NCBI GenBank assembly: GCA_003170295.1
Contig: PNAJ01000061.1
Coordinates: 33,630-97,629 of the forward strand
Source: Bryobacterales bacterium
GTDB lineage: Bacteria > Acidobacteriota > Terriglobia > Bryobacterales > Bryobacteraceae
DNA: 64,000 bases
Reading direction: 5' to 3'
Shown here: one piece after another, positions 24,222 to 31,085 of the stretch
Layout: every line of letters begins with the position of its first letter
Position numbering within the stretch: position 1 is the first letter of the stretch
Program-made: the position numbers and the translations under genes
The notes under the pieces: generated by a model
Told to the model about the DNA's origin: nothing
Seen by the model: only the letters and a program-made list of their open reading frames with translations
Database searches by the model: none

Positions 24222-25940
24222 TCAGTTCCTGTTCTTTTTCTTCGCGACCGGTTTTACGTCCACGACTTTCGGCGACGGCTTGGGTGTGCCCCGATTCAAA
24301 AACCACTGCTGAGCAATGCCCACCACGTTTCCGGTCAACCAGTATATTACCAGCCCGGAGGAAGCGAAGTAGAACATGTACCCCATCACGAGCGGCATGA
24401 ACATCATCATCTTCTGTTGCGTGGGGTCCACGCCGGGACTCGGCGTCATCTTTTGTGAAAGGAACTGCGTCACCACCAGGATCACCGGCAACACGTGAAT
24501 CGCCAGCGTTTCCATCTGTGAAAGATCCGAGACCCACAGCCAATGCGCGCCCCGCAACTGAATCGCGACGTTCAGCACTTTATAAAACGCGAAGAAGAAC
24601 GGCAGTTGGAGCAGCATCGGCAGACAGCCTCCCGCCGGATTCACTCCGTTCACCTTATAGAGAGCCATGATCTCCGCGTTCTGATCGGCTTTCTTCGGAT
24701 CGTTCAGCGAAAGCCCCTTGTACCGCGCGTTGATGGCGGCGATCTGCGGCTGAATCGTCTGCATCTTCTTCGACGATTTCATGCTGGTCATCTTCAACGG
24801 AAACAGCAGCGTGTTGATCGCGACCGTCACCAGGATGATCGCCCAGCCGTAATTTCCACCAACGTGTCCCGCCATCCACTTCAACGCTTCAAACAGACCC
24901 TTGGCGATAATCCCGAACATTCCCCAATCCACCACTTGCTCGAGCTTTGGATTCACGCGCTTCAGAATCTCGATATCCTTAGGCCCCACGAAAAGCTCGA
25001 ATGAGTTGAATCCTTCCCCGCCCACCGCCGCTCCCACGCGCGGCTCTTCTTTGCCGTCCTTGAGGATGTTGTCGGAGTACGTGGTCAATTCCATCGACGA
25101 AGCGCCGGTAGGCAGCAGCACGCCCGCGAAATAACTGTCTTCGATGCCAGCAAAAGTATACTGACCGCCCGAAGTCACCGGTCCGCTCTTGGCATCCTTC
25201 GGATCTTTCTTTTGCAGCTCGTTGCTGAGCACCCCGTAGGATCTGGGCGCATTCGGATCGTAGAGCAGTGCGTGTTGCAGCGACGCCGGATTGCTGACCG
25301 TCTCGTCGCCGAATCCGCCCCGCCATTCGAGCGAGTGCGGCAGCATCACACCGGTCTGCGAAACCTGCGACGTCACGCGCGCCAGATAACTGTCCTTCGC
25401 GAACTGAAAGGTTTTCTTGACGTCCACGCGTCCGTCTGAAAACTCGAACGCCAGGTTGTAGCCGTCGCGATCCAATTTAAACAGCGCGGTATTCGGATCG
25501 AAGGTCGGTTTCTGACCCTTAAACTCGATTGAGAATGGCGCGGGGACTTTGGCAAGCGCCGCCGCGTTCACAAGATCGAGAGGCTTTCCGTTATGATCCT
25601 TGAAATCCCGAAGGACCCAGCTTTTCACCACCGCGCCTTTACTCGAAAAAACAATGTGGCAAAGACCCGTGTCGACCACTACGGTTTCTTCCTGGTCGCC
25701 ATGGATCTGCCCCGGCATTTCCGCCGCCGCCGCTGCAGCCACAGGAATCACGGGTGCTGGAGCCGCAGGGGGAGGCGCCGTCGCCTCCACCGGATCGGTT
25801 GTCTTAGAAGTCGCGGGCTTGTTCGCACCCGGCGCCGGCGCCGCCGCAGGCTTATAGATGTAAGGCGTCAGGAACAGCACCAGCCCCATCAGCACGAATG
25901 CGATGAGAAGCCGCGCCTCCATCGAAAGGTCTTTCTTCAT
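24222..25940 (-). CDS. yidC: Membrane protein insertase YidC
   Basis: MEARLLIAFVLMGLVLFLTPYIY; YGWAIILVTVAINTLLFPLKMTSMKSSKKMQTIQPQI...GGCLPMLLQLPFFFAFYKVL. Confidence 0.97.
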   Translation of the reverse strand: MKKDLSMEARLLIAFVLMGLVLFLTPYIYKPAAAPAPGANKPATSKTTDPVEATAPPPAAPAPVIPVAAAAAAEMPGQIHGDQEETVVVDTGLCHIVFSSKGAVVKSWVLRDFKDHNGKPLDLVNAAALAKVPAPFSIEFKGQKPTFDPNTALFKLDRDGYNLAFEFSDGRVDVKKTFQFAKDSYLARVTSQVSQTGVMLPHSLEWRGGFGDETVSNPASLQHALLYDPNAPRSYGVLSNELQKKDPKDAKSGPVTSGGQYTFAGIEDSYFAGVLLPTGASSMELTTYSDNILKDGKEEPRVGAAVGGEGFNSFELFVGPKDIEILKRVNPKLEQVVDWGMFGIIAKGLFEALKWMAGHVGGNYGWAIILVTVAINTLLFPLKMTSMKSSKKMQTIQPQIAAINARYKGLSLNDPKKADQNAEIMALYKVNGVNPAGGCLPMLLQLPFFFAFYKVLNVAIQLRGAHWLWVSDLSQMETLAIHVLPVILVVTQFLSQKMTPSPGVDPTQQKMMMFMPLVMGYMFYFASSGLVIYWLTGNVVGIAQQWFLNRGTPKPSPKVVDVKPVAKKKNRN

Positions 25941-25956
25941 ACGCTGAAACAGGCCC

Positions 25957-26181
25957 TCAACGGACCGGATCCAGACCCCCTTGATGAAATGGATGGCAGC
26001 GGATGATGCGCCTCACGCCCTTCGCAACCCCGCGCCACACGCCGTATTTTTCCACTGCTTGCATCATGTAAACCGAACACGTCGGCTCAAACCGGCACGC
26101 CGAGGGCAGCAGCGGCGAAAGCCTTCGCTTATAGATACGCAGCGCGCCGATCACAGTTCGCACAGAGGCGGGCGGCCTCAT
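25957..26181 (-). CDS. yidD: Membrane protein insertion efficiency factor YidD
   Basis: MRPPASVRTVIGALRIYKRRLSPLLPSACRFEPTCSVYMMQAVEKYGVWRGVAKGVRRIIRCHPFHQGGLDPVR. Confidence 0.95.
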   Translation of the reverse strand: MRPPASVRTVIGALRIYKRRLSPLLPSACRFEPTCSVYMMQAVEKYGVWRGVAKGVRRIIRCHPFHQGGLDPVR

Positions 26182-26243
26182 TGTCACTTGACAGATACTG
26201 CCGCCCGCCGGAGCTTGTTCTTCACGGGCCGTGCGGCTGTTAT

Positions 26244-26639
26244 TTATGAGATCCCGCATTTTTCGATTACCTTCGCGAGCGCCCGCTCGAGATCGGCGAA
26301 CGGAGCCAGAATCGCCGCCTTGCGTGGGTTGATGACGATGTCCCAATCGATATTCCAGTCCATCCTGTGCAGCCGGAATGCCGCTCGAAAACGCCTCTTG
26401 ATGCGATTGCGCACCACCGCTCCGCCCAGCGCCTTTGGGACCGTAAGCCCGATACGCACTCCTGCCGCATCGCCTTCGCGCCGCACCATACAAAACGCGG
26501 CGAACAAAGGACCGGATACGCGGGTGCCGTTATCATAGACCGTTCGGAAGTCGGCGGAGCGCAGAATGCGAGAAGAACGAGGGAACGACTGCTGGCCGCC
26601 GGAGCCGGTGTTAATGGGAGTTCCGGACAGCTCTTTCAT
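26244..26639 (-). CDS. rnpA: Ribonuclease P protein component
   Basis: [20 protein letters not shown]...[28 protein letters not shown]; overlaps end of rpmH. Confidence 0.93.
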
Positions 26640-26778
26640 CGCTGACCGTCAACTTATGGCGGCCCTTGGCGCGACGGCGCGACAGCACGGCGCGGCCATT
26701 CTTCGTGTCCATCCGGGACCGGAATCCATGAGTCTTCGCGCGCTTGCGATTATTGGGCTGAAATGTACGTTTCGGCAT
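26611..26778 (-). CDS. rpmH: 50S ribosomal protein L34
   Basis: Reverse strand: [55 protein letters not shown]; absent from ORF track (55 aa). Confidence 0.95.
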
Positions 26779-26966: not shown

Positions 26967-27557
26967 TCACATCTCCAATTTCCCCTTCACCATCATGTCC
27001 TTCACCCGAAACTCCACCGTGCGGAACGGCGGCGTCACCCCAGGCAGATACAGCTCGAACGTCACCATCTTGTCCGTTGCCTGCACCTCGCGTGGAAAAG
27101 CCATGCGCAGGTAAACATCGTTCGCAGTAGGCGGGAAATGCCCAGTCACCTTATACTTCTTCCGCCCCACCCGCATCACCGACTCCTCCTCCATCCGCTT
27201 GGTCGCCGAAGCATCGTCAAAATCCTTAGTGCGAGGAATCCGGACCGCCACCACAATCTGCGTCGCCCGATTATCTTCAAGCCACAGCCGATACTCGGTG
27301 TCCATCGGAGTTTCAACAACCTTGCGCAGATACCGCAATTCCCGCTGCTTCTCGGCCTCCCGCATCGGCCCAGCGGTAGCGAGATAAACCTGCACCGCCG
27401 CGACGTGCGAATCTTTCGAAGCCCCCGTCCCCTCCGCCATCTGCCCCCAGGGAGAATCGGTAAACATGCGAATCAGCTCATCGTCAGTCCAATCAGAAGG
27501 AGCCTTCGTTTCCCAAAACGATGCGGCGAGGAAGAAGAGCATCGCGACCAGCTTCAT
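26967..27557 (-). CDS. Hypothetical secreted protein (GWxTD-like region possible)
   Basis: MKLVAMLFFLAASFWETKAPSDWTDDELIRMFTDSPWGQMAEG...; signal-like N-terminus, complete ORF, no confident family. Confidence 0.7.
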   Translation of the reverse strand: MKLVAMLFFLAASFWETKAPSDWTDDELIRMFTDSPWGQMAEGTGASKDSHVAAVQVYLATAGPMREAEKQRELRYLRKVVETPMDTEYRLWLEDNRATQIVVAVRIPRTKDFDDASATKRMEEESVMRVGRKKYKVTGHFPPTANDVYLRMAFPREVQATDKMVTFELYLPGVTPPFRTVEFRVKDMMVKGKLEM

Positions 27558-27609
27558 AACGTCGATTGTGGCACAGCCCCCCGATCCAGCCTGCTGGGGG
27601 GCGTGGTGG

Positions 27610-27658: not shown

Positions 27659-27772
27659 TCATGACCGCGCGAGAGCCTCATAAACATCCACGCGCTGTGT
27701 TGTTTTCCTCAACACATCGATTGGCTTCCGCTTTGAAACCTTTCGAACAACTGGGAGATTTGGAGAACCCAT
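27659..27772 (-). pseudogene. Truncated/deleted copy of the 105-aa gene at 28852-29169
   Basis: Encodes MGSPNLPVVRKVSKRKPIDVLRKTTQRVDVYEALARS vs intact MSSPSLPAVRKVSKRELRSIWNDPTFQSTLLRKTTQRVDVYEALAPP...; internal deletion and early stop. Confidence 0.8.
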
Positions 27773-28035
27773 GCTAACCGGGCAGCTTCGAGAATTGACC
27801 GAAAACTGCATTGCTGGAACCGTGTCGGTCTCCGGCTTCTCCGAACGCTTTGTGAGCCTCTACTTCGCCGGTCGGCAACACCGTCAGATTGCGCAGCGCC
27901 GTGGTAGCCCCTCGCCGAACGCTCCCGTGGGCATCGTTCGGAGTCGTCGCTTCGCTTGGAGTTGGAGAAGGCCCTCGTCTCGTAGCGAAGCATCGTGCGT
28001 CTGTCCCGTTACTCAATCTATAAGCCCAACTGTAA
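27771..28035 (+). pseudogene. Frameshifted copy of the 84-aa gene at 29168-29422
   Basis: MLTGQLRELTENCIAGTVSVSGFSERFVSLYFAGRQ... matches MLTGQLRELIESYVAGTVSVSDFSERFASLYFAVRQ; nucleotide similarity continues to about 28010 in other frames with indels. Confidence 0.8.
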
Positions 28036-28107: not shown

Positions 28108-28809
28108 GTGGCGGTGGAAAAGCTAGCGTTGCTACGCTTTATCGAGAACCGAAGCTTGCAGCGGTATTTCCACGGCCGCGGGGTGGAAATCGGAGCACTG
28201 TGGCGTCGCTTTCCTCTCCCTCGGCGCGCACGCGTCTGGTACATCGATCGGCTGGGCGGCGAGGGACTGGAAGAGCACTACCCTGAACTGAGGGGCCGCA
28301 TCATCCAGCCGGATCTGCTGGCAGACGCCGCAGAGCTGCCGTTGGCTCCGGCCAGTCTGGACTTTCTGATTGCCAGCCACCTGCTCGAACACCTGCAATT
28401 CCCCCTGGCCGCGTTGCGTGCCTGGTACAACCTCCTGGCGCCCGGAGGCGTCCTATTGCTCCGGGTGCCCGACAAACGCTACACCTTCGATAAACGCCGC
28501 GTCCGCACGTCTTTGGCACACCTGTTGAGCGAGCATGACGACCCCAAACTGTTCGGGCTTCGAGACCATTACGCGGACTTTGTCGCGAACGTAGCGGACT
28601 TGCGCCCGGACACTCAGGAGTTCGAACAGACAATCGACGATCTGATGCGCCGGAACTACAGCATTCACTTTCACGCCTGGATCGACGATGATGTGCGCGA
28701 GATCGTAGACTTTACTCAAAGCGCTTGGCGGCTGGAGTGGGATCTCGTGGTCTTCCGCCGCGCCCGTTCGTACCGCAAGGAAACCACCGTATTGCTGCGG
28801 CGGAAATAG
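28108..28809 (+). CDS. Class I SAM-dependent methyltransferase
   Basis: GRGVEIGALWRRF...DLLADAAELPLAPASLDFLIASHLLEHLQFPLAALRAWYNLLAPGGVLLLRVPDKRYTFD. Confidence 0.85.
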   Translation: MAVEKLALLRFIENRSLQRYFHGRGVEIGALWRRFPLPRRARVWYIDRLGGEGLEEHYPELRGRIIQPDLLADAAELPLAPASLDFLIASHLLEHLQFPLAALRAWYNLLAPGGVLLLRVPDKRYTFDKRRVRTSLAHLLSEHDDPKLFGLRDHYADFVANVADLRPDTQEFEQTIDDLMRRNYSIHFHAWIDDDVREIVDFTQSAWRLEWDLVVFRRARSYRKETTVLLRRK

Positions 28810-28851
28810 CGGCTTCCCAGCTTCATAAGGTCGATTGTGTCACGGTGATTC

Positions 28852-29169
28852 CTACGGATCGCACATCGGTACTCCGTCCACCAGGAGAAATATCGGGTCG
28901 GCTTTTCCGCTCGCGCCGATAGATCCGTCGGGGCGACGGTACATATGGAATGTTCCCAAGAGCCGCTCATTCGGGTTGTCCATGAGATCGTAGACACAAC
29001 TGAGTGTCCCGTCTTCCTGGCCGGAATCGGGAGGCGCAAGTGCCTCATAAACGTCCACGCGCTGCGTTGTCTTCCGCAACAGTGTAGATTGGAAGGTAGG
29101 GTCGTTCCAGATACTCCTCAACTCACGCTTTGAGACTTTTCGAACGGCCGGAAGACTTGGAGAACTCAT
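28852..29169 (-). CDS. Hypothetical 105-aa protein of divergent cassette
   Basis: MSSPSLPAVRKVSKRELRSIWNDPTFQSTLLRKTTQRVDVYEALAPPDSGQEDGTLSCVYDLMDNPNERLLGTFHMYRRPDGSIGASGKADPIFLLVDGVPMCDP; second (decayed) copy at 27659-27772 supports it as a coding unit. Confidence 0.7.
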   Translation of the reverse strand: MSSPSLPAVRKVSKRELRSIWNDPTFQSTLLRKTTQRVDVYEALAPPDSGQEDGTLSCVYDLMDNPNERLLGTFHMYRRPDGSIGASGKADPIFLLVDGVPMCDP

Positions 29170-29422
29170 GCTAACCGGACAGCTTCGGGAATTAATCGAA
29201 AGTTACGTTGCCGGAACCGTTTCGGTCTCCGACTTCTCCGAACGCTTCGCGAGCCTCTATTTCGCCGTTAGACAGCAGGCAGGTGAAGCAAGCGCCGCCA
29301 GATTGTGTAGCGCCGTGGTAGGCCCTCTCGCCGAGCACTCTCGTGGACATCGAACCGACTCGTCCCTTCGGCTGGAACTTGAGAAAGCCCTCGTCTCGGA
29401 ACGAAGCAGCGTGCGGCAGTAG
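29168..29422 (+). CDS. Hypothetical 84-aa protein of divergent cassette
   Basis: MLTGQLRELIESYVAGTVSVSDFSERFASLYFAVRQQAGEASAARLCSAVVGPLAEHSRGHRTDSSLRLELEKALVSERSSVRQ; paralogous to 27771.. pseudogene. Confidence 0.7.
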   Translation: MLTGQLRELIESYVAGTVSVSDFSERFASLYFAVRQQAGEASAARLCSAVVGPLAEHSRGHRTDSSLRLELEKALVSERSSVRQ

Positions 29423-29463: not shown

Positions 29464-29495
29464 GACACCGAACCCTGACCGTCAGGGAGGGGACG
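29464..29495. repeat. Copy of dispersed intergenic repeat (gaccgtcagggagg core)
   Basis: gacaccgaaccctgaccgtcagggaggggacg; compare 17537-17570, 36436-36564, 55279-55310. Confidence 0.6.
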
Positions 29496-29544
29496 ATGCA
29501 GCAAGGAAGAAGAGCATCTCGACTAGCTTCATAAGCCCGATTTT
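29493..29544. repeat. Duplicated 5' end fragment of the 26967-27557 gene
   Basis: acgatgcagcaaggaagaagagcatctcgactagcttcataagcccgatttt vs 27518-27571 acgatgcggcgaggaagaagagcatcgcgaccagcttcataacgtcgattgt. Confidence 0.75.
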
Positions 29545-29575
29545 GCCTTAGCGTCTTCGAAGAGGAACAGGGGCT

Positions 29576-30496: not shown

Positions 30497-30787
30497 ATGC
30501 TCGATATCACCAAAGACATCCAGTCCCTCACGACCTTCCGCCGCCGCTCTGGCGACTTCATGAAACAGCTCAAAAAGACCAAACGCCCGGTCGTGCTCAC
30601 CGTCAAAGGCAAGGCGCAAGCCGTCGTCCAGGACGCTGAAGCCTATCAGCGCCTGCTCGACATTGCCGCTTTAGCAGACGCGCGTGAAGGAATCCGCCAA
30701 GGCCTGGAGCAGTCTCGGCAAGGACTCGGAAAGCCCGCCCGGGAGTTCTTCGCCGAGTTCAGGGCGAAGCATGGCATACCTCGTTAG
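30497..30787 (+). CDS. Phd/YefM-family type II antitoxin
   Basis: MLDITKDIQSLTTFRRRSGDFMKQLKKTKRPVVLTVKGKAQAVVQDAEAYQRLLDIAAL. Confidence 0.93.
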   Translation: MLDITKDIQSLTTFRRRSGDFMKQLKKTKRPVVLTVKGKAQAVVQDAEAYQRLLDIAALADAREGIRQGLEQSRQGLGKPAREFFAEFRAKHGIPR

Positions 30788-31085
30788 GATCCTGCCTCGC
30801 GCTCAGCGCGATCTTGACGCCATCTATGCAGCGATCAATGCCGAACACTCAGACGCGGCGTTTCGATGGTTCGACGGATTGGAGCGCGCTGTCTTCACTC
30901 TGGAGGAAATCGCCGAACGCTGTCCGGTTACGCCCGAGGATGCAAGTCTGAGGCATTTGCTTTACGGCAAGAAGCCCCATGTCTATCGCGTGATCTATCG
31001 AGTCGTGGAGAATCAGAACGAAGTCCACACCCTCCACATCCGGCACGGCGCGCGACAAGCATTCAAGGCCGACGATCTGACCTGA
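30771..31085 (+). CDS. RelE/ParE-family toxin
   Basis: MAYLVRILPRAQRDLDAIYAAINAEHSDAAFRWFDGLERAVFTLEEIAERCPVTPED...LRHLLYGKKPHVYRVIYRVVENQNEVHTLHIRHGARQAF; ATG 30771 overlaps antitoxin end. Confidence 0.93.
   Translation: MAYLVRILPRAQRDLDAIYAAINAEHSDAAFRWFDGLERAVFTLEEIAERCPVTPEDASLRHLLYGKKPHVYRVIYRVVENQNEVHTLHIRHGARQAFKADDLT

Follow-up and report, generated by a model that had tools for sequence, protein, structure and literature searches.

The locus described here raises the question of whether two short open reading frames that point away from each other, with their start codons inside a single CATG, are real genes, whether their joined starts have been conserved, and what the two products may do together. 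The window, by which we mean the whole 64,000-nucleotide stretch of a Bryobacterales genome that was analyzed, contains both frames, and the overlap of divergent starts pointed out in an earlier note proved to be real.

The gene pair and its decayed duplicate

Gene A (28852–29169, minus strand) encodes 105 amino acids and gene B (29168–29422, plus strand) encodes 84, each from an ATG. The two start codons, 29169–29167 for A and 29168–29170 for B, have bases 29168 and 29169 in common, and the CATG that they form (29167–29170) is assigned to no strand. From its homologues and the predicted structure of one of them, A is a putative toxin-like protein; B, whose homologues lie divergent to A, is a putative four-helix antidote, again with the predicted structure of a homologue as a guide. 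Neither family has a name. Both reading frames are real, conserved proteins, and they make up an uncharacterized module of two protein families that are absent from the libraries searched. The GGAG at 29159–29162 on the plus strand, within the first codons of A and spaced 5 nt from the ATG of B, is the likely Shine-Dalgarno sequence of B. With a pI of 5.2 the window's own A is acidic, and two residues of the family are missing from it, the Q of TRSQ, which reads TLSC here, and the K of PDPK, which reads PDPI. This A is therefore atypical, and the copy may have been altered or be on its way to decay.

The genome carries two copies of the pair in total, one intact and one decayed, the latter lying about 1.4 kb upstream of the former. 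As had been proposed, the second copy retains the junction, with the same CATG as at 29167–29170 standing at 27770–27773 (no strand), and both remnants are damaged. The A remnant (27659–27772, minus strand) has lost internal codons through an in-frame deletion, and its downstream part has been lost or replaced; the B remnant (27771–28004, plus strand) lacks 17 nt through a deletion, and its frame is broken. The truncation of the one and the deletion in the other indicate that the duplicate has indeed decayed. Next to both copies are repeats of a short segment from around the start of the gene at 26967–27557 (27518–27577, 28817–28843 and 29493–29552), and these repeats mark the duplication, with a methyltransferase gene (28108–28809) between the copies.

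Just upstream of this region, at 24222–26778, are open reading frames that by eye resemble yidC, yidD, rnpA and rpmH, which suggests that a replication origin may be nearby. On the other side, about 1 kb from the CATG pair, is a classical co-directional type II module at 30497–31085, consisting of a Phd/YefM antitoxin (PF02604) and a ParE toxin (PF05016).

Conservation of the junction and the translation starts

To score the junction we assigned a start to each gene separately, taking whichever ATG lay closest upstream of its conserved core and ignoring the partner. Under this rule the exact CATG overlap was present in 42 of 63 non-redundant homologous loci, and the junction is conserved in distant relatives. 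The count rises to 44 of 63 if a slightly more upstream start is allowed in L032 and L036, and the two starts fall within an offset of −5 to +7 nt in 53 of the 63. When start-to-core distances were permuted between loci in 10,000 trials, exact overlaps averaged 5.0 with a maximum of 16; the permutation ignores relatedness, and the sequences are highly diverged. A set of Chloroflexota loci, which apart from a few stood outside model building, gave an exact overlap in 14 of 21 scored loci. Conservation of the junction is therefore far beyond chance. The earlier note had named homologues with another start and no partner as the observation that would speak against it. Such cases are exceptions only: in about one third of the loci the starts are displaced, mostly by a few nucleotides, and the few copies of A that have no detected B are described below.

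Among the loci with the CATG, the distance between the two cores varies from 29 to 89 nt. The length from ATG to core varies from 5 to 22 codons in A and from 3 to 8 in B. The N-termini thus change in length while the starts stay joined. Around the junction only the CATG is invariant, the remaining columns carrying 0.65 bit at most. This speaks against a conserved operator, and a palindromic operator site was rejected on the same ground.

Overlaps of this orientation are uncommon. Divergent overlaps account for approximately 1% of well-characterized prokaryotic gene overlaps (457 of about 42,000; PMC2478687), and those shorter than 5 nt number 57 (331 minus 274) in 58 genomes (PMC2174442), an under-representation that has been attributed to constraint on start regions (PMC2174442). 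No class of overlap is rarer, and divergent cases are often set aside as misannotations; the one described here is nucleotide-exact across distant phyla.

The earlier note had also held that each ribosome-binding site must lie inside the partner gene, and this was borne out in an analysis of 44 loci, in which matches to the anti-Shine-Dalgarno sequence fall within the first codons of the partner. A Shine-Dalgarno duplex of −4.5 kcal/mol or lower was found for B in 36 of 44 loci (control, 20%) and for A in 19 of 44 (control, 16%), so that the signal of A is weaker than that of B but still enriched. An earlier exact-word test had been marginal for A; the duplex-energy test, with more loci, was clearer. 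The B duplex is the stronger in 35 of the 44 loci (p about 1e-6). In the window the energies are −6.4 kcal/mol for B and −2.4 kcal/mol for A, which has nothing comparable to the GGAG of B. This asymmetry leads us to expect that B protein should exceed A.

A consensus search recognized no sigma-70-like promoter. Leaders are favored over leaderless transcripts, given the enrichment of Shine-Dalgarno motifs and the lack of an evident positional −10 motif. Since ribosome-binding sites require transcribed leaders, each mRNA must start within its partner, and the two messages must have 5' ends that are complementary over both start codons. This complementarity follows from the geometry; any regulatory effect of it is an inference. 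The pair offers a compact and directly testable case in which to examine whether genes that oppose each other are coupled in expression by overlapping starts.

Two linked families and what they may do

Homologues of A share only about 20–35% identity with the window protein, occur in Acidobacteriota, Chloroflexota and other phyla, and nearly always adjoin a divergent B. A scan of genome contigs with the window A as a single protein returned no match, and the homologues emerged after the search was seeded with distant homologues. In a profile search of 396 Acidobacteriota genomes, A was found in 9, B in 9 and both in 8 (Fisher p about 6e-15), and B was detected in 34 of 36 genomes that host A, nearly always beside it. 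The copies of A in which B was not detected (L010/G321, L043, L053 and L151) lie at contig ends or are decayed or very divergent. A scan of species genomes yielded 37 further A loci, in Acidobacteriota, Chloroflexota, Rokubacteria, Deltaproteobacteria, Omnitrophota, Brocadiales and others; all but one come from metagenome bins, and single assignments, such as an archaeal one, may therefore be wrong. Viral contigs contributed 8 A loci, and 400 genomes drawn from the phylum of G412, the host of a Dehalococcoidia locus, contained A in 23. The module is consequently present in about 2% of the sampled Acidobacteriota genomes and about 6% of those sampled from the latter phylum. Searches of phage and plasmid collections gave no relatives of A, and plasmids gave none of B.

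Closely related pairs of loci show purifying selection on A and B alike, with dN far below dS. The values of dN and dS were 0.09 and 1.37 for A and 0.10 and 1.24 for B in the pair L038/L040, and 0.04 and 0.26 for A and 0.03 and 0.19 for B in L139/L141. G412 carries, besides the pair L027, a second and divergent A-B pair with an extra tandem B (L124:1686-3941). By eye, a transposase-like protein is encoded near the module in L013, L019, L021 and L049, and an integrase-like protein in L026, L047 and L054.

The two proteins differ in charge, with a median pI of 9.6 for A and 4.7 for B (4.5 over the first 80 residues of B). The A family has nearly invariant residues in the stretches TRSQ, HQY and DGxxGASGxPDPK. 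AlphaFold2 models of the L015 proteins gave for A a strand, two helices and five strands (E-H-H-E-E-E-E-E; pLDDT 86.5), and for B a four-helix bundle with pLDDT above 90 over the bundle and a disordered tail. No family in Pfam, NCBIfam, PADLOC or PHROGs covers either protein, the few matches of single members being weak and inconsistent. The fold of A returned no significant match; PDB and viral models gave SnoaL-like or unrelated proteins with low TM-scores, and we therefore claim no fold family for it. The A profile matched an Rhs toxin chain (9qp8) weakly, with an E of 0.33. The top two PDB matches of B were both ImmD, the immunity protein of colicin D, with probabilities of 0.97 and 0.92, E values of 0.69 and 1.3 that are not significant and, for the first of them, a TM-score of 0.66 on target length, where the four-helix bundle is a common fold and the statistics are weak. 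At all loci the A reading frames measure 61–133 amino acids, except in L026 (276 amino acids, fused downstream) and in the broken L063, and at none of these loci did A form the end of a large secreted toxin, as the C-terminal domain of a polymorphic toxin would. Long open frames around some A copies were considered as additional domains and rejected, being mostly antisense of B or broken genes; the exception is again L026.

Linkage, complementary charge, the ImmD-like B, the asymmetry of the ribosome-binding sites and the patchy spread together make a toxin/antidote-like module the simplest account of the pair. The pairing of toxin with antitoxin, or effector with immunity protein, which had been put forward before, is the idea that best fits a basic A, an acidic B resembling ImmD, and a stronger ribosome-binding site for B. 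We give about even weight to the full proposal of a conserved and patchily distributed module of divergent genes whose starts are locked at the CATG, with toxicity, neutralization and antisense coupling as its presumed workings. A, a small basic alpha+beta protein, would probably be a toxin that cleaves nucleic acid, and the acidic four-helix B would probably bind and block it, as ImmD does colicin D. With the ribosome-binding sites within the partner's first codons, the leader of each mRNA would be antisense to the translation start of the other. The stronger site of B would keep B protein in excess, and B mRNA could in addition mask the start of A.

Whether this amounts to a new class of module, across phyla, in which a single CATG unites the start codons of a toxin and its antidote and the antidote's leader acts as an antisense RNA while its protein also neutralizes, is a bolder proposal that we advance tentatively. 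If it is true, control by protein and by RNA would be built into four bases. In either form the proposal adds a candidate conflict module, often with a third gene overlapping its other end.

Strict linkage and opposite charges would suit any obligate complex, and a less probable explanation is that A and B form a non-toxic complex or a pair of regulators, such as an enzyme with its activator, with the overlapping starts fixing the ratio of their synthesis. The fused A homologue of L026 (L026:3977-4807, TTG start) is in keeping with such a role, as it is joined to TerB-like and BRCT-like regions, weakly matched and below the Pfam cut-offs. However, divergent genes would be an odd means of fixing stoichiometry, for which co-directional overlap is better suited, and the patchy spread, the decayed copies and the presence in only about 2–6% of genomes are more suggestive of an accessory module involved in conflict.

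The third gene, C, encodes a DUF6941 protein. It is convergent with B in 35 of the 63 loci, across phyla, and usually overlaps the 3' end of B, mostly by 26–96 nt; in L011-L051 and others this 3' overlap is antisense, so that B is overlapped at both ends. No other neighbor recurs in more than a few loci, and we found no mention of DUF6941 in the literature searched. The window has no DUF6941 gene, and in its place is a gene for a DUF2971 protein (PF11185; 29576–30379, minus strand), likewise convergent with B. The recurrence of C would accord with a three-gene defense or stress module that has A as its effector and from which the window has lost C. We consider this unlikely, since many intact pairs have no adjoining C (the window, L027, L037, L038, L040, L044, L045 and many in Chloroflexota), indicating that C is not obligatory there, and a search with PADLOC defense profiles gave no match among 43 A members and three B members.

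The least probable account is that compaction produced the overlap passively, starts that once abutted having been inherited without function; common descent would explain its presence, and the starts have moved in about a third of the loci without evident loss of the genes, but the CATG is kept far above the permuted expectation despite varying N-terminal lengths and core-to-core distances, in what is otherwise the rarest class of overlap (PMC2478687, PMC2174442).

Relation to known systems

Judged by membership, the A-B pair belongs neither with colicin D/ImmD nor with the classical type II systems; by analogy it may work like either. The toxin/antidote-like reading has its closest counterpart in the colicin D tRNase and ImmD (PF11429 Colicin_D and PF09204 Colicin_immun; PDB 1v74 and 1tfk), which likewise combine a basic alpha+beta protein with a small acidic four-helix partner. 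Catalysis in colicin D involves His, Lys, Asp and Ser, and A has nearly invariant H, S, D and K, a comparison of residue types. In contrast to colicin D, A is free-standing and has no delivery domains, and the A and B genes are divergent with overlapping starts. Colicin_D had no match in the window's own genome and 118 other Acidobacteriota genomes, none of 43 A members matched Pfam, and Colicin_immun had no match in the same genome or among 36 B members.

Type II toxin-antitoxin systems of the RelE/ParE-like kind resemble the pair in having two small linked genes, a sporadic distribution and, plausibly, neutralization of protein by protein, and the topology of A is loosely BECR-like. The BECR fold consists of an N-terminal helical segment followed by a four-stranded meander (PMC3482391). 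The order of elements in A fits this RNase core loosely, and no BECR entry was among the 50 Foldseek matches listed. Unlike type II systems, A and B match no family and B has no recognized DNA-binding domain; classical type II modules are co-directional operons, whereas A and B diverge in the window as well as in each of the 63 scored loci.

Antisense control at a start region is also a feature of type I toxin-antitoxin systems and of excludons. The geometry of A and B would likewise force complementary 5' ends over both starts if both mRNAs have leaders, with the difference that both strands encode conserved proteins here, and that antisense control of the pair is putative. The short divergent overlaps of prokaryotes share with A and B the overlap of two 5' ends on opposite strands (PMC2174442, PMC2478687). 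Such overlaps are seldom found, and the long examples that have been looked at proved to be misannotations, whereas the overlap of A and B is a fixed 2 nt across phyla.
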